NCBI GenBank assembly: GCA_016235425.1
Contig: JACRLC010000076.1
Span: forward strand, 26,905-90,904
Origin: Chloroflexota bacterium
Lineage (GTDB): Bacteria > Chloroflexota > Anaerolineae > Anaerolineales > Villigracilaceae
Direction of reading: 5' to 3'
DNA: 64,000 nucleotides
In this document: positions 59,985 to 64,000 of the stretch, piece by piece
Layout of the letters: each line of letters begins with the position of its first letter
How positions within the stretch are numbered: position 1 is the stretch's first letter
Position numbers and translations under genes: made by a program
The notes under the pieces: model-generated
Database searches by the model: none
The model's input: only the letters and a program-made list of their open reading frames with translations
What the model was told of the DNA's origin: nothing

Positions 59985-60532
59985 AGTCCTTCGAGCAGGT
60001 GAACTCTGATTAAACGGCGGCCAGCATCAATGTCCAGAATGACCGCGGGGATGGCGGGGAGCAATAATTCTTTGCCGGAGTCATCCGTCACAACGTACAC
60101 GTCGTTCGCGCCCGTCTCGATGATTTCGGTCAATGTCCCGAGGGTTTTGTCGGCCTCGTCAACGACGGTCATCCCGAAAAGTTCGTGCTGGTAAATCTGA
60201 CCTTCGGGCAGCGCAGGGACTTCACTCCCCTTGACGTAGACCCACTGGTTGCGGAGCTGGCCGGCGTCTTCGGGCGTGTCAATGCCGCGAAATTTTACCA
60301 AAACGCCATTCGCGTGCAAACGCGCACCTTCAAGCGGCAAAGCCTTATGCTTCTCGCCGACGAAGAGTTTGCGCCCTGCTTCAAGCCGTTCGGGGAAATC
60401 GGTGTGCAAATCCATAATGATCTCACCATGCACGCCATGCGGGCGGCGAAGAAATCCGACCACCAAATAGAAAGGCTCGCCTGCTGGCGAGCCGGTACCA
60501 GACTTCGCTGGAGATTCTTTCTTTGCAGGCAT
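59981..60532 (-). CDS. rimM: Ribosome maturation factor RimM
   Basis: A 183-residue factor that helps assemble the head of the 30S subunit and binds uS19. The N-terminal domain has YLVVGFLRRPHGVHGEIIMDLHTDFPERL, the RimM signature. The PRC-barrel follows with IYQHELFGMTVVDEADKTLGTLTEIIETGANDVYVV and KELLLPAIPAVILDIDAGRRLIRVHL. The ATG at 60532 overlaps the khpA stop (TGATG), so it is coupled. Unlike many bacteria, trmD and rplS do not follow; dprA does. Confidence 0.95.
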   Translation of the reverse strand: MPAKKESPAKSGTGSPAGEPFYLVVGFLRRPHGVHGEIIMDLHTDFPERLEAGRKLFVGEKHKALPLEGARLHANGVLVKFRGIDTPEDAGQLRNQWVYVKGSEVPALPEGQIYQHELFGMTVVDEADKTLGTLTEIIETGANDVYVVTDDSGKELLLPAIPAVILDIDAGRRLIRVHLLEGL

Positions 60533-60765
60533 CAAGGTTCCACTACGTCGAGCGCGGCCTGTTTGCCTTCGCGTTCGGCGGCCACACGGAGCAGGGTGCG
60601 GATGGAGTTCGCCACCTTGCCGCCTTTGCCGATCACGCGGCCCATGTCGTCCCTTGATACACTCAATTCGATGCGGACGCGCGAGCCATTTCCGACTTCG
60701 CTCACCTGCACATCTTCGGGATGCTCAACAAGTGACTTGGCAATGAATTCGATGAGGTCTTTCAT
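60532..60765 (-). CDS. khpA: KH-domain RNA-binding protein KhpA
   Basis: A 77-residue protein with one KH domain: VRIELSVSRDDMGRVIGKGGKVANSIRTLLRVAA contains the GxxG loop (GKGG). KhpA binds RNA, often with KhpB, and affects cell division and translation in other bacteria. The start is ATG 60765; a longer frame upstream is in repeat DNA. Neighbours are rpsP upstream and rimM downstream (four-base overlap), the standard arrangement. Confidence 0.94.
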   Translation of the reverse strand: MKDLIEFIAKSLVEHPEDVQVSEVGNGSRVRIELSVSRDDMGRVIGKGGKVANSIRTLLRVAAEREGKQAALDVVEP

Positions 60766-60776
60766 AAGAAACTCCT

Positions 60777-60849
60777 CCCTCACCCTAGCCCTCTCCCGAA
60801 GGGAGAGGAGACTCCCTTCCCCCAAAGGGGGAAGGGCTGGGGATGAGGG
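60777..60849. repeat. CCCTCACCC...GATGAGGG repeat with two hairpins
   Basis: Outer CCCTCACCCTAGCCC and GGGCTGGGGATGAGGG, with inner CTCTCCCgaaGGGAGAG and CCTTCCCCCaaaGGGGGAAGG. It sits in the rpsP-khpA gap. A related element is at 23538. Confidence 0.65.
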
Positions 60850-60855
60850 AAAATT

Positions 60856-61200
60856 CTAATCCTTGCGGGTCTTTACCGGTGCGGCGCGCCTGGTTTCAGC
60901 TTCGGCGGCTTCAGCGACGAGGGTTTCAAGGGACTCGCCCTTCTTGAAACGCTCAAAACGAGCCTGTGTACCGGAGGTCTTGAAAATCTGCGCCACAGAC
61001 TCGGAGGGCAGGGCGCCGTTTTTCATCCAGTGAAAGACGCGGTCTTCCTTTAAGTGGATCGTTGCCGGGTTGGTACGGGGATTGTACACACCGAGGATTT
61101 CCAAAAAGCGACCATCGCGCGGGGCTTCCTTATCGGCGGCCACAACGCGGTACGTGGGTTGGCCTTTGAGGCCAATACGACGTAAACGAATACGAACCAT
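60856..61200 (-). CDS. rpsP: 30S ribosomal protein bS16
   Basis: A 114-residue ribosomal protein needed for 30S assembly. The N-terminal VRIRLRRIGLKGQPTYRVVAADKEAPRDGRFLEILGVYNPR and the following DRVFHWMKNGALPSESVAQIFK are diagnostic; an Ala/Glu tail follows. The start is ATG 61200 with GGAG upstream on the minus strand. It is the first gene of the rpsP-khpA-rimM-dprA-manC-topA run, all on the same strand. Confidence 0.97.
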   Translation of the reverse strand: MVRIRLRRIGLKGQPTYRVVAADKEAPRDGRFLEILGVYNPRTNPATIHLKEDRVFHWMKNGALPSESVAQIFKTSGTQARFERFKKGESLETLVAEAAEAETRRAAPVKTRKD

Positions 61201-61449
61201 TTGACTTGCTCCTTTAGAATGTTTTGCGTTTCAGACAGGCAAGAGAGGGGTTGCATGGAAGGATCATGCGGCCTTGCGGGCTGGAATCGTCGGGCTGTAT
61301 TTTACCAGAGAAAAGGGAAATTGCCCTTTTTCGGTTTGGGGGCGTATAAGACATAGTTGGTCGATCAGTTTCCTGGGTTTTTGTATATTTTCCATTTTTG
61401 CTTGCCCACGTGAGGAGGTGCTTGTATAATGTATGAAAGATATAGGAAG
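61201..61449. other. Intergenic region between rpsP and the cassette palindromes
   Basis: 249 bp with no gene. It falls steadily in GC to the right, and probably carries the rpsP promoter (minus strand) near 61230-61330. A short minus-strand open frame (61214-61501) lacks any protein-like feature. Confidence 0.4.
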
Positions 61450-61512
61450 TTATACAGCCATTTTGCTGTATAAAACACCTTTTTGGGGGTTTATACAGCA
61501 TGCTGTATAAAC
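61450..61512. promoter_or_regulatory. Two tandem TATACAGC palindromes (operator-like)
   Basis: First palindrome: TTATACAGC (61450-61458) and GCTGTATAA (61465-61473) with a 6-base gap. Second: a perfect, gap-free palindrome at 61489-61512, half-sites GTTTATACAGCA and TGCTGTATAAAC. Together four half-sites alternate in orientation, and the inner two can also pair over ACACC...GGGGT. Such clustered dyads usually bind a dimeric regulator or a recombinase; nothing here says which. They lie 5 bp before the cassette boundary GTTGGGT. Confidence 0.65.
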
Positions 61513-61516
61513 CATA

Positions 61517-61523
61517 GTTGGGT
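61517..61523 (+). other. Candidate 5' boundary of an integron-like cassette (GTTGGGT)
   Basis: GTTGGGT fits the integron core-site consensus GTTRRRY and is exactly complementary to ACCCAAC at 63276-63282, the first core of the attC-like element after the gene. In a cassette these two boxes come together when it circularises, so they are expected to match. No full attC or attI is evident before it. Confidence 0.5.
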
Positions 61524-61587
61524 TGCTAACAACGTGAAATTCAAAAGAAGAAATTGTCTCGCTAAGGCTGTGTGCAAGCAATTGACG

Positions 61588-61593
61588 TATAAT
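61588..61593 (+). promoter_or_regulatory. -10 box for the TIR gene inside the cassette
   Basis: A perfect TATAAT 30 bp before the ATG at 61623, preceded directly by TTGACG but without a -35 at the normal 17-bp spacing. The ribosome site AGGGG lies before the start, so unlike pgl this gene has a leader. Confidence 0.45.
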
Positions 61594-61622
61594 TTCTAAA
61601 AATCTCCCTGAGGGGAAACATT

Positions 61623-63215
61623 ATGCCTGAACCCAAACACCTACTCAAAGTTTTTCTCTGCCACGCATCACAGGACAAGCCTAGTGTGCGGGAACTTGCC
61701 CAACGCCTTTTTGCTGAAGGTTGGATTGACCCTTGGCTTGATGAGAAGAAACTATTACCTGGGCAAGATTGGCGATTAAAAATTGAAGAAGCCGTTGAAA
61801 CCTCTGACATAGTGATTATTTGTCTTTCAAGTAATTCTGTCAGCAAGGAAGGGTTTATTCAGAAAGAGTTAAGATATGCCAGAGAAATTGCGCTTGAAAA
61901 ACTTGAAGAATCTATTTTCCTAATACCTTTACGAATTGATGAGTGCGCTGTTCCAAGGGGTTTACGTTTTTATCAATGGGCAGATTATTTTGGGGAAAAG
62001 AAAGATGAAACATACAATGCTTTACTTGAATCTTTGAGATTGCGCTATGAGCAGAAATTAAAGATTGAGAAGGAAGAACATGCTCGCAAGGAAAAAGAGA
62101 GACTGGAGCGTGAAGCCGCTGAAAAAGTAGCGTGGGAGAAAGCAGAGCGCGAAGCAGCCGAAAGAATCGCAAAGGAAAAAGCGGAAAGGGAAGCCGCTAC
62201 AAAAGCGGCGCGGGAGAAAGCGGAACTTGAAGCCGCTGAAAAAGCAGCACGAGAAAAAACAAAACATGAATTTGCTGAGAAATCCCAACGTGAAAAAGCA
62301 GCACATCGAGCCGCTCGGAAGGCAGAACTAGAAAAGTCTATCTCTAAATCTTTCGCCACGTTTAAGTCAATTCTTATAAGGGGTATTCCATTTTTTAGAA
62401 TTGCAGGAGTCATAGGAATTATTATCATTTTCTTTTGGGGTGGCTCATTGGTAATGCCTCAAGTTCTTTCGCTTATACCAACCGCAAGCCCAAGCGCCAC
62501 GATTACGCCTACAATTACTCCTGTCCCACCCACGAAAACGCTTGTCCCAACTCCTACGAAAACAAAAGTGCCCACTGCAACGCCTCGACCCTCAACATTC
62601 TCTATTTACGATGATTTTTCATCTGGGTCTTCTAGTAAAAAATTTAATACGGCACTTTGGGCAAATCCAAGCAATCAAGCAGCCATAAGTTGGCAAAATG
62701 GATATTTAATTTTTTCGGGAAACAACTGTGATTGTGTTCTTCCATCGAATTCGCCCACGCAATGGCGAATAGGTCAGATAGGAAAACTGCAAGCGGATTT
62801 AAGGCTTGATAAAGTTTCTGGTGGATATGGGTTTACAAAAATCCAAATTCTTACTACTTTGTCCGATGGCAAAGGAACTTGGTGGGTACAATGTAGAGCA
62901 GGTTCATTTGATGGCAAAACAGCGCAATTTATTTGCGATTCATACAGATATGATGGTAAGACCTTTATTACCAGTTATCAAACTGTGTCTCAGTCTATTG
63001 AATTCGATAAGTTTTACACAGTCGCCATTGAATTGGCGTCAGACGCCAGCATTATTAAATACTATTTTGGTGATAAGGAAATTGGGTCTTATAAACCACA
63101 AGAAAAAAATCTGTTGAGCAATGCAACATTCACTTGGCAAATTGGTTTGTACGCTGGCGACGGTGCTAGTGCTACTGGAGCAATAGATAATGTAATGATA
63201 GGTACTCTAAAGTAA
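61623..63215 (+). CDS. Transmembrane TIR-domain protein with exported lectin-like domain
   Basis: A 530-residue membrane protein. Residues 8-140 form a TIR domain: KVFLCHASQDKPSVRELAQRL, WLDEKKLLPGQDW, and SSNSVSKEGFIQKEL, where Glu 82 is in the place of the catalytic Glu of TIR NADases. Residues ~140-240 are a charged Ala/Glu/Lys helix with six 13-residue repeats (162-239). A membrane span lies at about 257-279. A Thr/Pro linker (287-323) follows, then a ~200-residue exported domain (FSIYDDFSSGSSSKKFNTALW ... AIDNVMIGTLK), a jelly-roll lectin/laminin-G-like fold. The topology is TIR inside, sensor outside. It likely consumes NAD+ or makes a cyclic signal when the outer domain is engaged, inferred from TIR biology. 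The gene is AT-rich compared with the chromosome and lies in an integron-like cassette. Confidence 0.88.
   Translation: MPEPKHLLKVFLCHASQDKPSVRELAQRLFAEGWIDPWLDEKKLLPGQDWRLKIEEAVETSDIVIICLSSNSVSKEGFIQKELRYAREIALEKLEESIFLIPLRIDECAVPRGLRFYQWADYFGEKKDETYNALLESLRLRYEQKLKIEKEEHARKEKERLEREAAEKVAWEKAEREAAERIAKEKAEREAATKAAREKAELEAAEKAAREKTKHEFAEKSQREKAAHRAARKAELEKSISKSFATFKSILIRGIPFFRIAGVIGIIIIFFWGGSLVMPQVLSLIPTASPSATITPTITPVPPTKTLVPTPTKTKVPTATPRPSTFSIYDDFSSGSSSKKFNTALWANPSNQAAISWQNGYLIFSGNNCDCVLPSNSPTQWRIGQIGKLQADLRLDKVSGGYGFTKIQILTTLSDGKGTWWVQCRAGSFDGKTAQFICDSYRYDGKTFITSYQTVSQSIEFDKFYTVAIELASDASIIKYYFGDKEIGSYKPQEKNLLSNATFTWQIGLYAGDGASATGAIDNVMIGTLK
62106..62339 (+). repeat. Six 39-bp coding repeats in the TIR protein helix
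   Basis: Six consecutive 39-nt units encode EREAAEKVAWEKA-type 13-mers (EREAAEKVAWEKA, EREAAERIAKEKA, EREAATKAAREKA, ELEAAEKAAREKT, KHEFAEKSQREKA, AHRAARKAELEKS). Protein identity exceeds DNA identity, so the array is old and selected. A 13-residue period is unlike the 7- or 11-residue periods of coiled coils. Confidence 0.8.
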
Positions 63216-63275
63216 AACTCTCCGTAAAAAAAGGCTAAGTTGTTAATTATGATGGCAATTCTTCCAAGACCGCAA

Positions 63276-63403
63276 CCCAACAAAGCGTGCACTGGACGCT
63301 GGGGTACGGTGCGGCTTTTCAAGCATTTTTCTGGCTTCGAGTTTTCTCTGCTCCCAAACAGAATCCACGCCCGCCCACACGCAGGTAACGCAAACCGTTA
63401 GCC
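63276..63403 (+). other. attC-like recombination element (integron cassette site)
   Basis: 128 bp long. It starts ACCCAAC (63276-63282, fits RYYYAAC) followed by AAAGCGTGCACTGG, and ends ACGCAGGTAACGCAAACC then GTTAGCC (63397-63403, GTT with an imperfect RRRY). GCGT (63286-63289) can pair with ACGC (63388-63391), and CTGG/CAGG-type pairs continue the stem imperfectly, as in attC sites with L boxes. The length matches long chromosomal attC sites. A structure-based search would be decisive. Confidence 0.55.
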
Positions 63404-63455
63404 ACCTCTTCGAGAATTATGTAGGTCTTCAAAATAATTTTGTCTGCGAGCAAAG

Positions 63456-64000
63456 ATGATTGATTTCAAAACCTATGCAAAGAGTTTTTTCTCTGATGTC
63501 GCCAAAGGAACAGTTGAAATCTACAATGAATTTAGCCTTCAGCATGAATTTGGGCTTTATTTGCGGACAACGTGTGGCACGGCTTTCAAAACTCAATTTG
63601 AACGCCCTGTTTCTTTCTTTGGCTTGCATCGAAGTAATTTTGTAAAAAAAGAAATTGACATTTCAGTTTTTGCTCCAGACCAGATAGAAAAATATGCAAT
63701 CGAATTGAAGTATCCGCGCAATGGTCAACACCCAGAGCAAATGTTCAAGGCTTGTCAAGATATTTGTTTTCTTGAACAACTTCGTCAAAGCGGTTTTGTA
63801 AAATGTTGTTTTATAATCGTGGCAGATGACCATTTGTTTTATTCGCATGGTGACCAAACGGGAATATACAAATTTTTCCGAGCGGGTGTTCCGATACACG
63901 GCAATATTCAGAAACCTACTGGGGCAAAAGATGACGCAGTAGAAATTATCGGCAATTATTCTGTTGTTTGGAATGATGTTGATAAAAACCGAAAATATGC
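63456..64000 (+). CDS. Partial PD-(D/E)XK nuclease-like protein (next cassette)
   Basis: A reading frame starting MIDFKTYAKSFFSDVAKG and still open after 181 residues at the window edge. KKEIDISVFAP (Asp 68) and YAIELKYPRNGQ (Glu 83, Lys 85) give the D...ExK pattern of the PD-(D/E)XK nuclease core, with a following helix EQMFKACQDICFLEQL. An N-terminal acidic helix (EIYNEFSLQHEF) fits too. It begins 53 bp after the attC-like element, with only weak ribosome-site sequence. AT-rich like the TIR gene. It may be a restriction-like or other nuclease; the call is by fold pattern. Confidence 0.6.
   Translation, partial: MIDFKTYAKSFFSDVAKGTVEIYNEFSLQHEFGLYLRTTCGTAFKTQFERPVSFFGLHRSNFVKKEIDISVFAPDQIEKYAIELKYPRNGQHPEQMFKACQDICFLEQLRQSGFVKCCFIIVADDHLFYSHGDQTGIYKFFRAGVPIHGNIQKPTGAKDDAVEIIGNYSVVWNDVDKNRKY

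Follow-up and report, generated by a model that had tools for sequence, protein, structure and literature searches.

A TIR receptor-like gene cassette behind an attI-type site with no adjacent integrase in an Anaerolineae genome

Introduction

Integrons combine an integrase gene (intI), an attachment site (attI), the promoter Pc and cassettes ending in attC sites. The locus analysed here carries cassettes beside a ribosomal protein gene, and it raises the question of what kind of site received them and by which integrase. The window, i.e. the whole stretch of 64,000 nucleotides under analysis (genome G000, contig C65, positions 26905-90904), comes from an Anaerolineales bacterium, and its right edge is the contig end. 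A first-pass annotation had placed a TIR receptor-like gene in an integron-like cassette there, and proposed either cassettes lacking an integrase or insertion at a secondary site. Published work is cited by PMC number and for the excerpts available of each paper.

Results

The locus holds no integrase, and intI genes lie elsewhere in the genome

The genome (5.0 Mb, 109 contigs, 99.6% complete) encodes three full-length integron integrases, with TIGR02249 scores of 462 (C98), 444 (C5) and 434 bits (C23) at a cut-off of 265, and a broken one on C43. At E ≤ 0.001 no intI was found in the window or on the rest of C65, as the first-pass annotation had stated for the window; the intact genes on C98, C5 and C23 answer its question about intI elsewhere. 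At this locus intI, attI and cassettes do not occur together as in a complete integron, part of the array being unassembled. Among 61 genomes, intI was detected at E ≤ 1e-60 in 32 (own included), with few integrases per genome.

The host gene to the left of the array is rpsP (ribosomal protein S16; 60856..61200, − strand), an ORF with homologues in 56 of the 61 genomes, own included. Its leader is conserved with a same-genus relative (G001) to about position 61324, as seen by blastn against relatives. Between rpsP and a KH-domain gene lies a strong GC-rich hairpin (60779-60849) with sub-threshold Rfam matches only. Rfam at E ≤ 1 over 60501-64000 reported no attC and no intron.

The TIR cassette ends in an attC site with mismatched arms

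The cassette begins at the R box GTTGGGT (61517..61523, + strand), with the insertion point G|TT after 61517, and it ends in an attC at 63275..63403 (+ strand; R'' ACCCAAC, 63275-63281; R' GTTAGCC, 63397-63403). These boxes are those named by the annotation, and the 5' box is the exact complement of R'' (7/7 nt). The element was scored with covariance model R1, whose training set was seven attC sites (C23, four; HKUEN02, two; C105, one), the window attC being left out. Such a search had been proposed, and its failure named among the grounds for dropping the cassette reading; the site was recovered at 94 bits and E 1.4e-24, with the order R''-L''-L'-R' at the cassette 3' end. The annotated attC-like element is thus an attC, at 129 nt rather than 128 bp. 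In the R1 stem, 8 of 24 pairs are changed on both sides, and 92.8% of cells pair, vs. 32-43% when the alignment is slid.

The whole genome gave 22 R1 matches (five of them model sites, two overlapping) in a scan that scored 150 of 887 candidates. R1 matches occur in 41 of the 61 genomes, own included. Of 50 consecutive R'/R'' pairs taken from ten arrays, 46 are exact complements, vs. a mean of 9.9 and a maximum of 20 in 2000 shuffles; the four other pairs are the first of L010 and the first of L226 (core coordinates off by at least one base), one of L262 (6/7) and an unplaced one of L226. The window element is the attC of an integron-type cassette, beyond chance.

The annotation had also suggested folding the bottom strand, and here the canonical hairpin was not obtained: the predicted best fold lacks the canonical stem (z = -0.17), which was present in 6/6 other sites folded. 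The hairpin is missing because the two arms mismatch. Read from the site sequences, the right arm equals that of C23_4, and the pairing partner of the left arm is the right arm of C105_1. The TIR attC therefore looks chimeric, and its source could be homologous attC-attC exchange or an assembly chimera. Since the arms do not pair, the cassette would now be hard to excise, and may have lost mobility. Another site on C105 (L071, 5409-5612) likewise has arms that mismatch each other and match arms of other sites.

The left boundary is homologous to integrase-linked attI sites

A four-site (type-1) profile was made from integrase-linked attI only (G028:C5, G014:C15, G033:C28 and G024:C139, all from other genera than the window). 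With nhmmer it gave one match in the window, at 61411..61522 on the + strand, ending exactly at the cassette boundary, with 29.7 bits and E 2e-8 for the window alone (9.6e-7 in a run scaled to 3 Mb); this training set contains no lone site and is not blind, because the profile was made after the likeness of the window had been seen. Among 100 random windows (first-order Markov resamplings), 76 gave any match, the best at 7.7 bits. An earlier three-site profile had scored the window at 18.6 bits (E 0.0014, window plus 262 loci). The segment is attI-like by homology to integrase-linked attI and by its end at G|TT. It does not lie immediately beside intI, as attI is defined in PMC9668308 (excerpt): its neighbour is rpsP, and C65 has no TIGR02249 match.

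The layout of the segment is shared with the intI 5' regions of several relatives, which have TATAAT, an inverted repeat, a second inverted repeat and NNTA|GTT. A promoter-like TTGCCC-17-TATAAT, a candidate Pc, was found by consensus scan at 61402..61430 (+ strand); the scan gave 8 such sequences vs. 5.4 in shuffles, and is therefore not significant alone. From the start of TATAAT to the core there are 92 nt in the window; the four profile sites have 90-96 nt. The first inverted repeat, TTATACAGC..GCTGTATAA, lies at 61450..61473, and a perfect 26-nt palindrome, GGTTTATACAGCATGCTGTATAAACC, lies just 5' of the core (61488..61513); allowing up to 2 mismatches in its 20-nt centre, the palindrome has no other occurrence in G000. 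The attI of G028:C5 and the window have in common the run TTTTGGGGGTTTATA and the end TATAAACC.TAGTT.

When 61317-61622 was compared with the 61 genomes, a 37-nt stretch of 95% identity was found on G014:C8. It spans the palindrome and the cassette boundary, core included, and heads a cassette with attC beside an unrelated gene and without intI. A second core copy, GTATAAGACATA|GTTGG (61344..61360, + strand; G at 61356), stands 161 nt upstream of the boundary with a shortened palindrome, and is perhaps a duplicated attI. Plasmid records contained no match to the leader, and IMG/VR none to its palindrome pattern. Judged by homology, the left boundary is an attI homologue and not a chance secondary site.

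The TIR protein is a predicted membrane receptor

The annotated TIR gene was confirmed: a 530-aa ORF (61623..63215, + strand) matches Pfam TIR_2 with 94.2 bits and 1.1e-26 (cut-off 28). The TIR domain occupies residues 10-134, a long predicted helix starts at 124 and a membrane segment lies at about 260-278; the outer part consists of a Pro/Thr stalk and a GH16-fold beta sandwich (about 319-530), and no GH16 catalytic motif was found in the protein. Solved relatives of the TIR domain include AbTIR. Residue E82, the Glu of a QKEL stretch, is invariant across 19 aligned proteins and presumably catalytic. The protein is a predicted membrane effector whose outer beta sandwich would bind a sugar-like ligand; binding may switch on a TIR activity, probably NAD-consuming, as expected of defence-type cargo.

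The second cassette gene (63456..64000, + strand) starts 52 nt after the attC end, is still open at the window and contig end that cuts it, and belongs to an uncharacterised family, mostly of about 187 aa, with best matches 94-95% identical. PADLOC models matched mainly the TIR part of the first protein; a partner was sought as in Thoeris and short pAgo, and the second gene, the only other one visible in this incomplete array, had no match.

TIR-domain gene cassettes have been reported from plant-microbiome integrons, with host immune regulation discussed (PMC11089894, excerpt). The annotation had called a membrane TIR in a cassette unusual; TIR cassettes as such are not new, and what sets this protein apart from those of the excerpt is its membrane segment with an outer GH16-fold domain. 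By their titles, 39 of 41 GTDB loci holding TIR relatives belong to Anaerolineales, other Anaerolineae or Chloroflexi, and the rest to Brevinema and Abawacabacteria. R1 found attC at one of the 41 (L095), the tail of which is adapter sequence, so that its TIR gene is cut and any attC beyond is invisible; at L079 the match is weak (E 0.075), and its strand is the wrong one relative to the TIR gene. Among 30 TIR loci of the 61-genome set, the single one with attC is the window itself. By these counts, most TIR genes of the family do not occur as cassettes. A third case, outside those 30 loci, was retrieved by position: on G003:C47 (L206, 3398-5227) a KAP NTPase-TIR fusion gene is a cassette in an array of seven attC, in a genome where no intI was found at E ≤ 1e-60. 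The closest TIR relatives (P0001-P0006) are 71-89% identical and lie on metagenome contigs of ≤3.7 kb. TIR orthologues at the same place in relatives would have spoken against a cassette, and the surroundings of rpsP in relatives yielded no TIR relative.

The array probably fills the interval between rpsP and ffh

In 7 of the rpsP loci of 12 relatives (G001, G033, G006, G014, G028, G036 and G017), ffh precedes rpsP in the same orientation; none of the 12, same-genus G001 included, has attC even at E ≤ 1. The ffh gene of G000 is at the start of C68, in the order group II intron 3' end (Rfam RF00029, a match checked for C68 only) inside an attC (112-233), CAAX-protease-like gene (PF02517), ffh. 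One attC in the window and the interrupted one on C68 thus flank an unassembled gap. With array sequence by rpsP on C65 and by ffh on C68, the interval between the two genes is likely taken up by an array that is not fully assembled. The annotation had looked to attC sites on the right for support; the contig ends there, and C68, which ffh places on the far side, begins with one. In PMC7923331 (excerpt), group IIC-attC introns are described as opposite.

Lone attI sites occur in six genomes

A second attI profile was built from the C5, C98 and C43 sites of G000 and G007:C25, and both training-only profiles were used in a survey (E ≤ 0.01, match reaching the core). In 77 loci around arrays or integrases (0.577 Mb), 27 rows were obtained, corresponding to 25 sites (two antisense doubles), vs. 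0 sites in 112 comparison loci (0.770 Mb), a ratio that is not a population estimate because the array loci were chosen for holding arrays or integrases. As comparison served 69 TIR loci, 29 IMG/VR loci with an integrase, 12 rpsP loci, L011 and L095, of which nine (L095 and eight from IMG/VR) do carry attC by R1 at E ≤ 0.05.

An intI is canonically placed at 10 of the 25 sites (eight of them training sites, L276 and L280 not; that of C43 is broken), and at L234 it lies at the far end of the array. Two attI-like sites of G008 have, directly downstream and in the same direction, a tyrosine recombinase only ~32% identical to IntI (two copies: L243, 5138-5929; L244, 9715-10506); this single-contig genome has no TIGR02249 match at E ≤ 1e-60. 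The other 12 sites, from six genomes including our own, are lone, intI being absent over 3.5 kb as far as the sequence extends: the window, L221, L235 and L236 (G014), L224, L226 and L227 (G033), L232 (G028), L239 and L241 (G007), and L249 and L250 (G036). Each of the 12 precedes attC in the same orientation.

Three further lone sites were recognised by other means and missed by the training-only profiles at E ≤ 0.01, namely L071:2326 (C105), L175:781 (C99; recovered by an iterated profile alone, at 0.0048) and L221:5543 (G014:C8). Upstream of the 15 lone sites, intI remnants were sought at E ≤ 0.05 over a maximum of 3 kb (L236, 1.4 kb; L071 and L221:8704, 2.3 kb); 14 sites gave none, and 9/9 controls were found, seven of which had supplied a query. 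At the remaining site, L250 (G036:C18), an intI N-terminal stub of about 50 residues stands in the canonical divergent place (E 0.003).

An inverted-repeat scan over 3.06 Mb of strand gave 8 places, 7 at array heads and one a terminator-like hairpin (L100); a stricter first scan gave 2, and the scan misses several profile-found sites. G033:C24 (L223) and C27 (L225) carry a third palindrome type and were left out of the count. The attI profiles gave no match at reversed-layout integrons (own C23 and the eight IMG/VR loci with attC). On C23 (L010, 6532-7520) intI points towards the array, and integrons of the usual layout occur in the same genome.

Discussion

We favour, with a probability of roughly one half, the reading that the TIR gene is the first cassette behind an attI-type site without intI, and that an integrase encoded at another locus likely supplied the cassettes in trans. 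The source would be one of the three intact genes on C5, C98 and C23, whose product would recombine incoming cassettes at the window attI, and the candidate Pc within this site would drive the TIR gene. Lone docking sites are also present in five related genomes, which suggests that they are likely loaded by an integrase produced from another locus. The same cassette start (GTTGGACGAACCCG...) is found at the ends of C5, C98 and C23 (L007, L008 and L010), behind two attI and one attC; being common to three platforms, it suggests exchange between them. Published assays show recombination with intI and attI carried by different plasmids (PMC9668308, excerpt). The lone sites are clean and several per genome, and integrases are few per genome, which favours action in trans. 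Against it stand the two lone sites of G036, where no intI was found at E ≤ 1e-60, and the window attC copy, predicted not to fold canonically. No cognate integrase is in sight in G000, because the intI-linked attI on C5, C98 and C43 are of another sequence type.

That same pairing of the C5, C98 and C43 integrases with another attI type also fits a relic, in which a full integron once stood between ffh and rpsP and lost intI, leaving attI, promoter and cassettes as a CALIN that keeps attI. Such an origin is the main rival and a serious possibility, although we place it somewhat on the improbable side. The intI stub at L250 means that decay happened at least once, in a genome with no intI found at E ≤ 1e-60, and intI loss with arrays kept is reported for Xanthomonas (PMC12444791, excerpt) and Treponema (PMC3607928, excerpt). 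In contrast, 14 of 15 lone sites show no remnant, and three lone sites each in G014 and G033 would require repeated clean deletions sparing attI and promoter; the 12 relatives' rpsP loci without attC would make both the arrival of the platform and the loss of intI recent. Between transfer in trans and a relic, we lean to the former, without certainty.

Insertion at a secondary (attG-type) site, with cassettes placed at a chance GTT before rpsP, was raised by the annotation and was our own first reading. The array does lie in a non-integron locus, and IntI can use such sites (PMC12444791, excerpt). This reading was dropped, and we now think it very improbable: over the 112 nt leading up to the boundary the sequence matches integrase-linked attI (E 2e-8), and the 37-nt stretch across the boundary recurs on G014:C8, at an unrelated locus in another genus. 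Still less credit is due to a mis-join that would have put attI and cassettes beside rpsP. Contigs break within arrays, and shared repeats (the group II intron and one cassette) end many of them; both ends of the interval agree, however, since the array borders rpsP on C65 and ffh on C68, and since ffh precedes rpsP in the loci of 7 of the 12 relatives; lone sites also occur in other assemblies, one of them of 20 contigs (G036).

Resuming insertion in trans, we tentatively propose, at odds slightly short of even, that the Anaerolineae integron is distributed, with several stand-alone attI and promoter platforms per genome, dispersed at ordinary genes and stocked in trans by a single integrase or a few; as part of this proposal, the cassettes on such platforms would be partly defence-like, the TIR receptor being an example. 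If so, these platforms go unreported by current integron finders.

The locus resembles an integron in its attI homologue, the promoter-like sequence at the same place, the attC and the complementary boxes, and differs in having no intI beside attI and a ribosomal protein gene at its left. Like a CALIN it has cassettes without intI, but its array begins with an attI that can be recognised as such, a feature that CALIN finding does not seek. Cassettes also lie where there is no intI in attG-type insertions, whereas the insertion site here is attI by homology. Class 1 integrons with a truncated intI1 keep attI and Pc and have no working integrase; in contrast, no intI remnant was found here, and the sites are many and dispersed. 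For IntegronFinder 2.0, attI outside class 1 is poorly described and undetected (PMC9024848, excerpt). As in the plant-microbiome integrons, TIR genes are cassettes, so the new point is the left boundary, an attI without intI. No title or abstract on lone or orphan attI was found among the literature matches listed, a search to which subscription papers mostly did not belong. If lone attI platforms are common, (i) many arrays now counted as clusters without integrase are genuine insertion sites with a promoter; (ii) a single integrase can diversify several chromosomal loci; and (iii) integron counting and the view of defence-like cassette expression change.

IntI homologues up to 84% identical lie on IMG/VR contigs labelled viral (L118-L146), and at eight of these 29 loci attC follows intI in the reversed layout. 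On C18 of G000, a CRISPR spacer (L023, 1069-1102) with no other match in its own genome at ≤3 mismatches resembles an attC 3' end followed by a cassette start (ACCGCTAACGCAAGCCGTTGGCAAGCCCC..), which suggests a CRISPR memory of a cassette-bearing invader.
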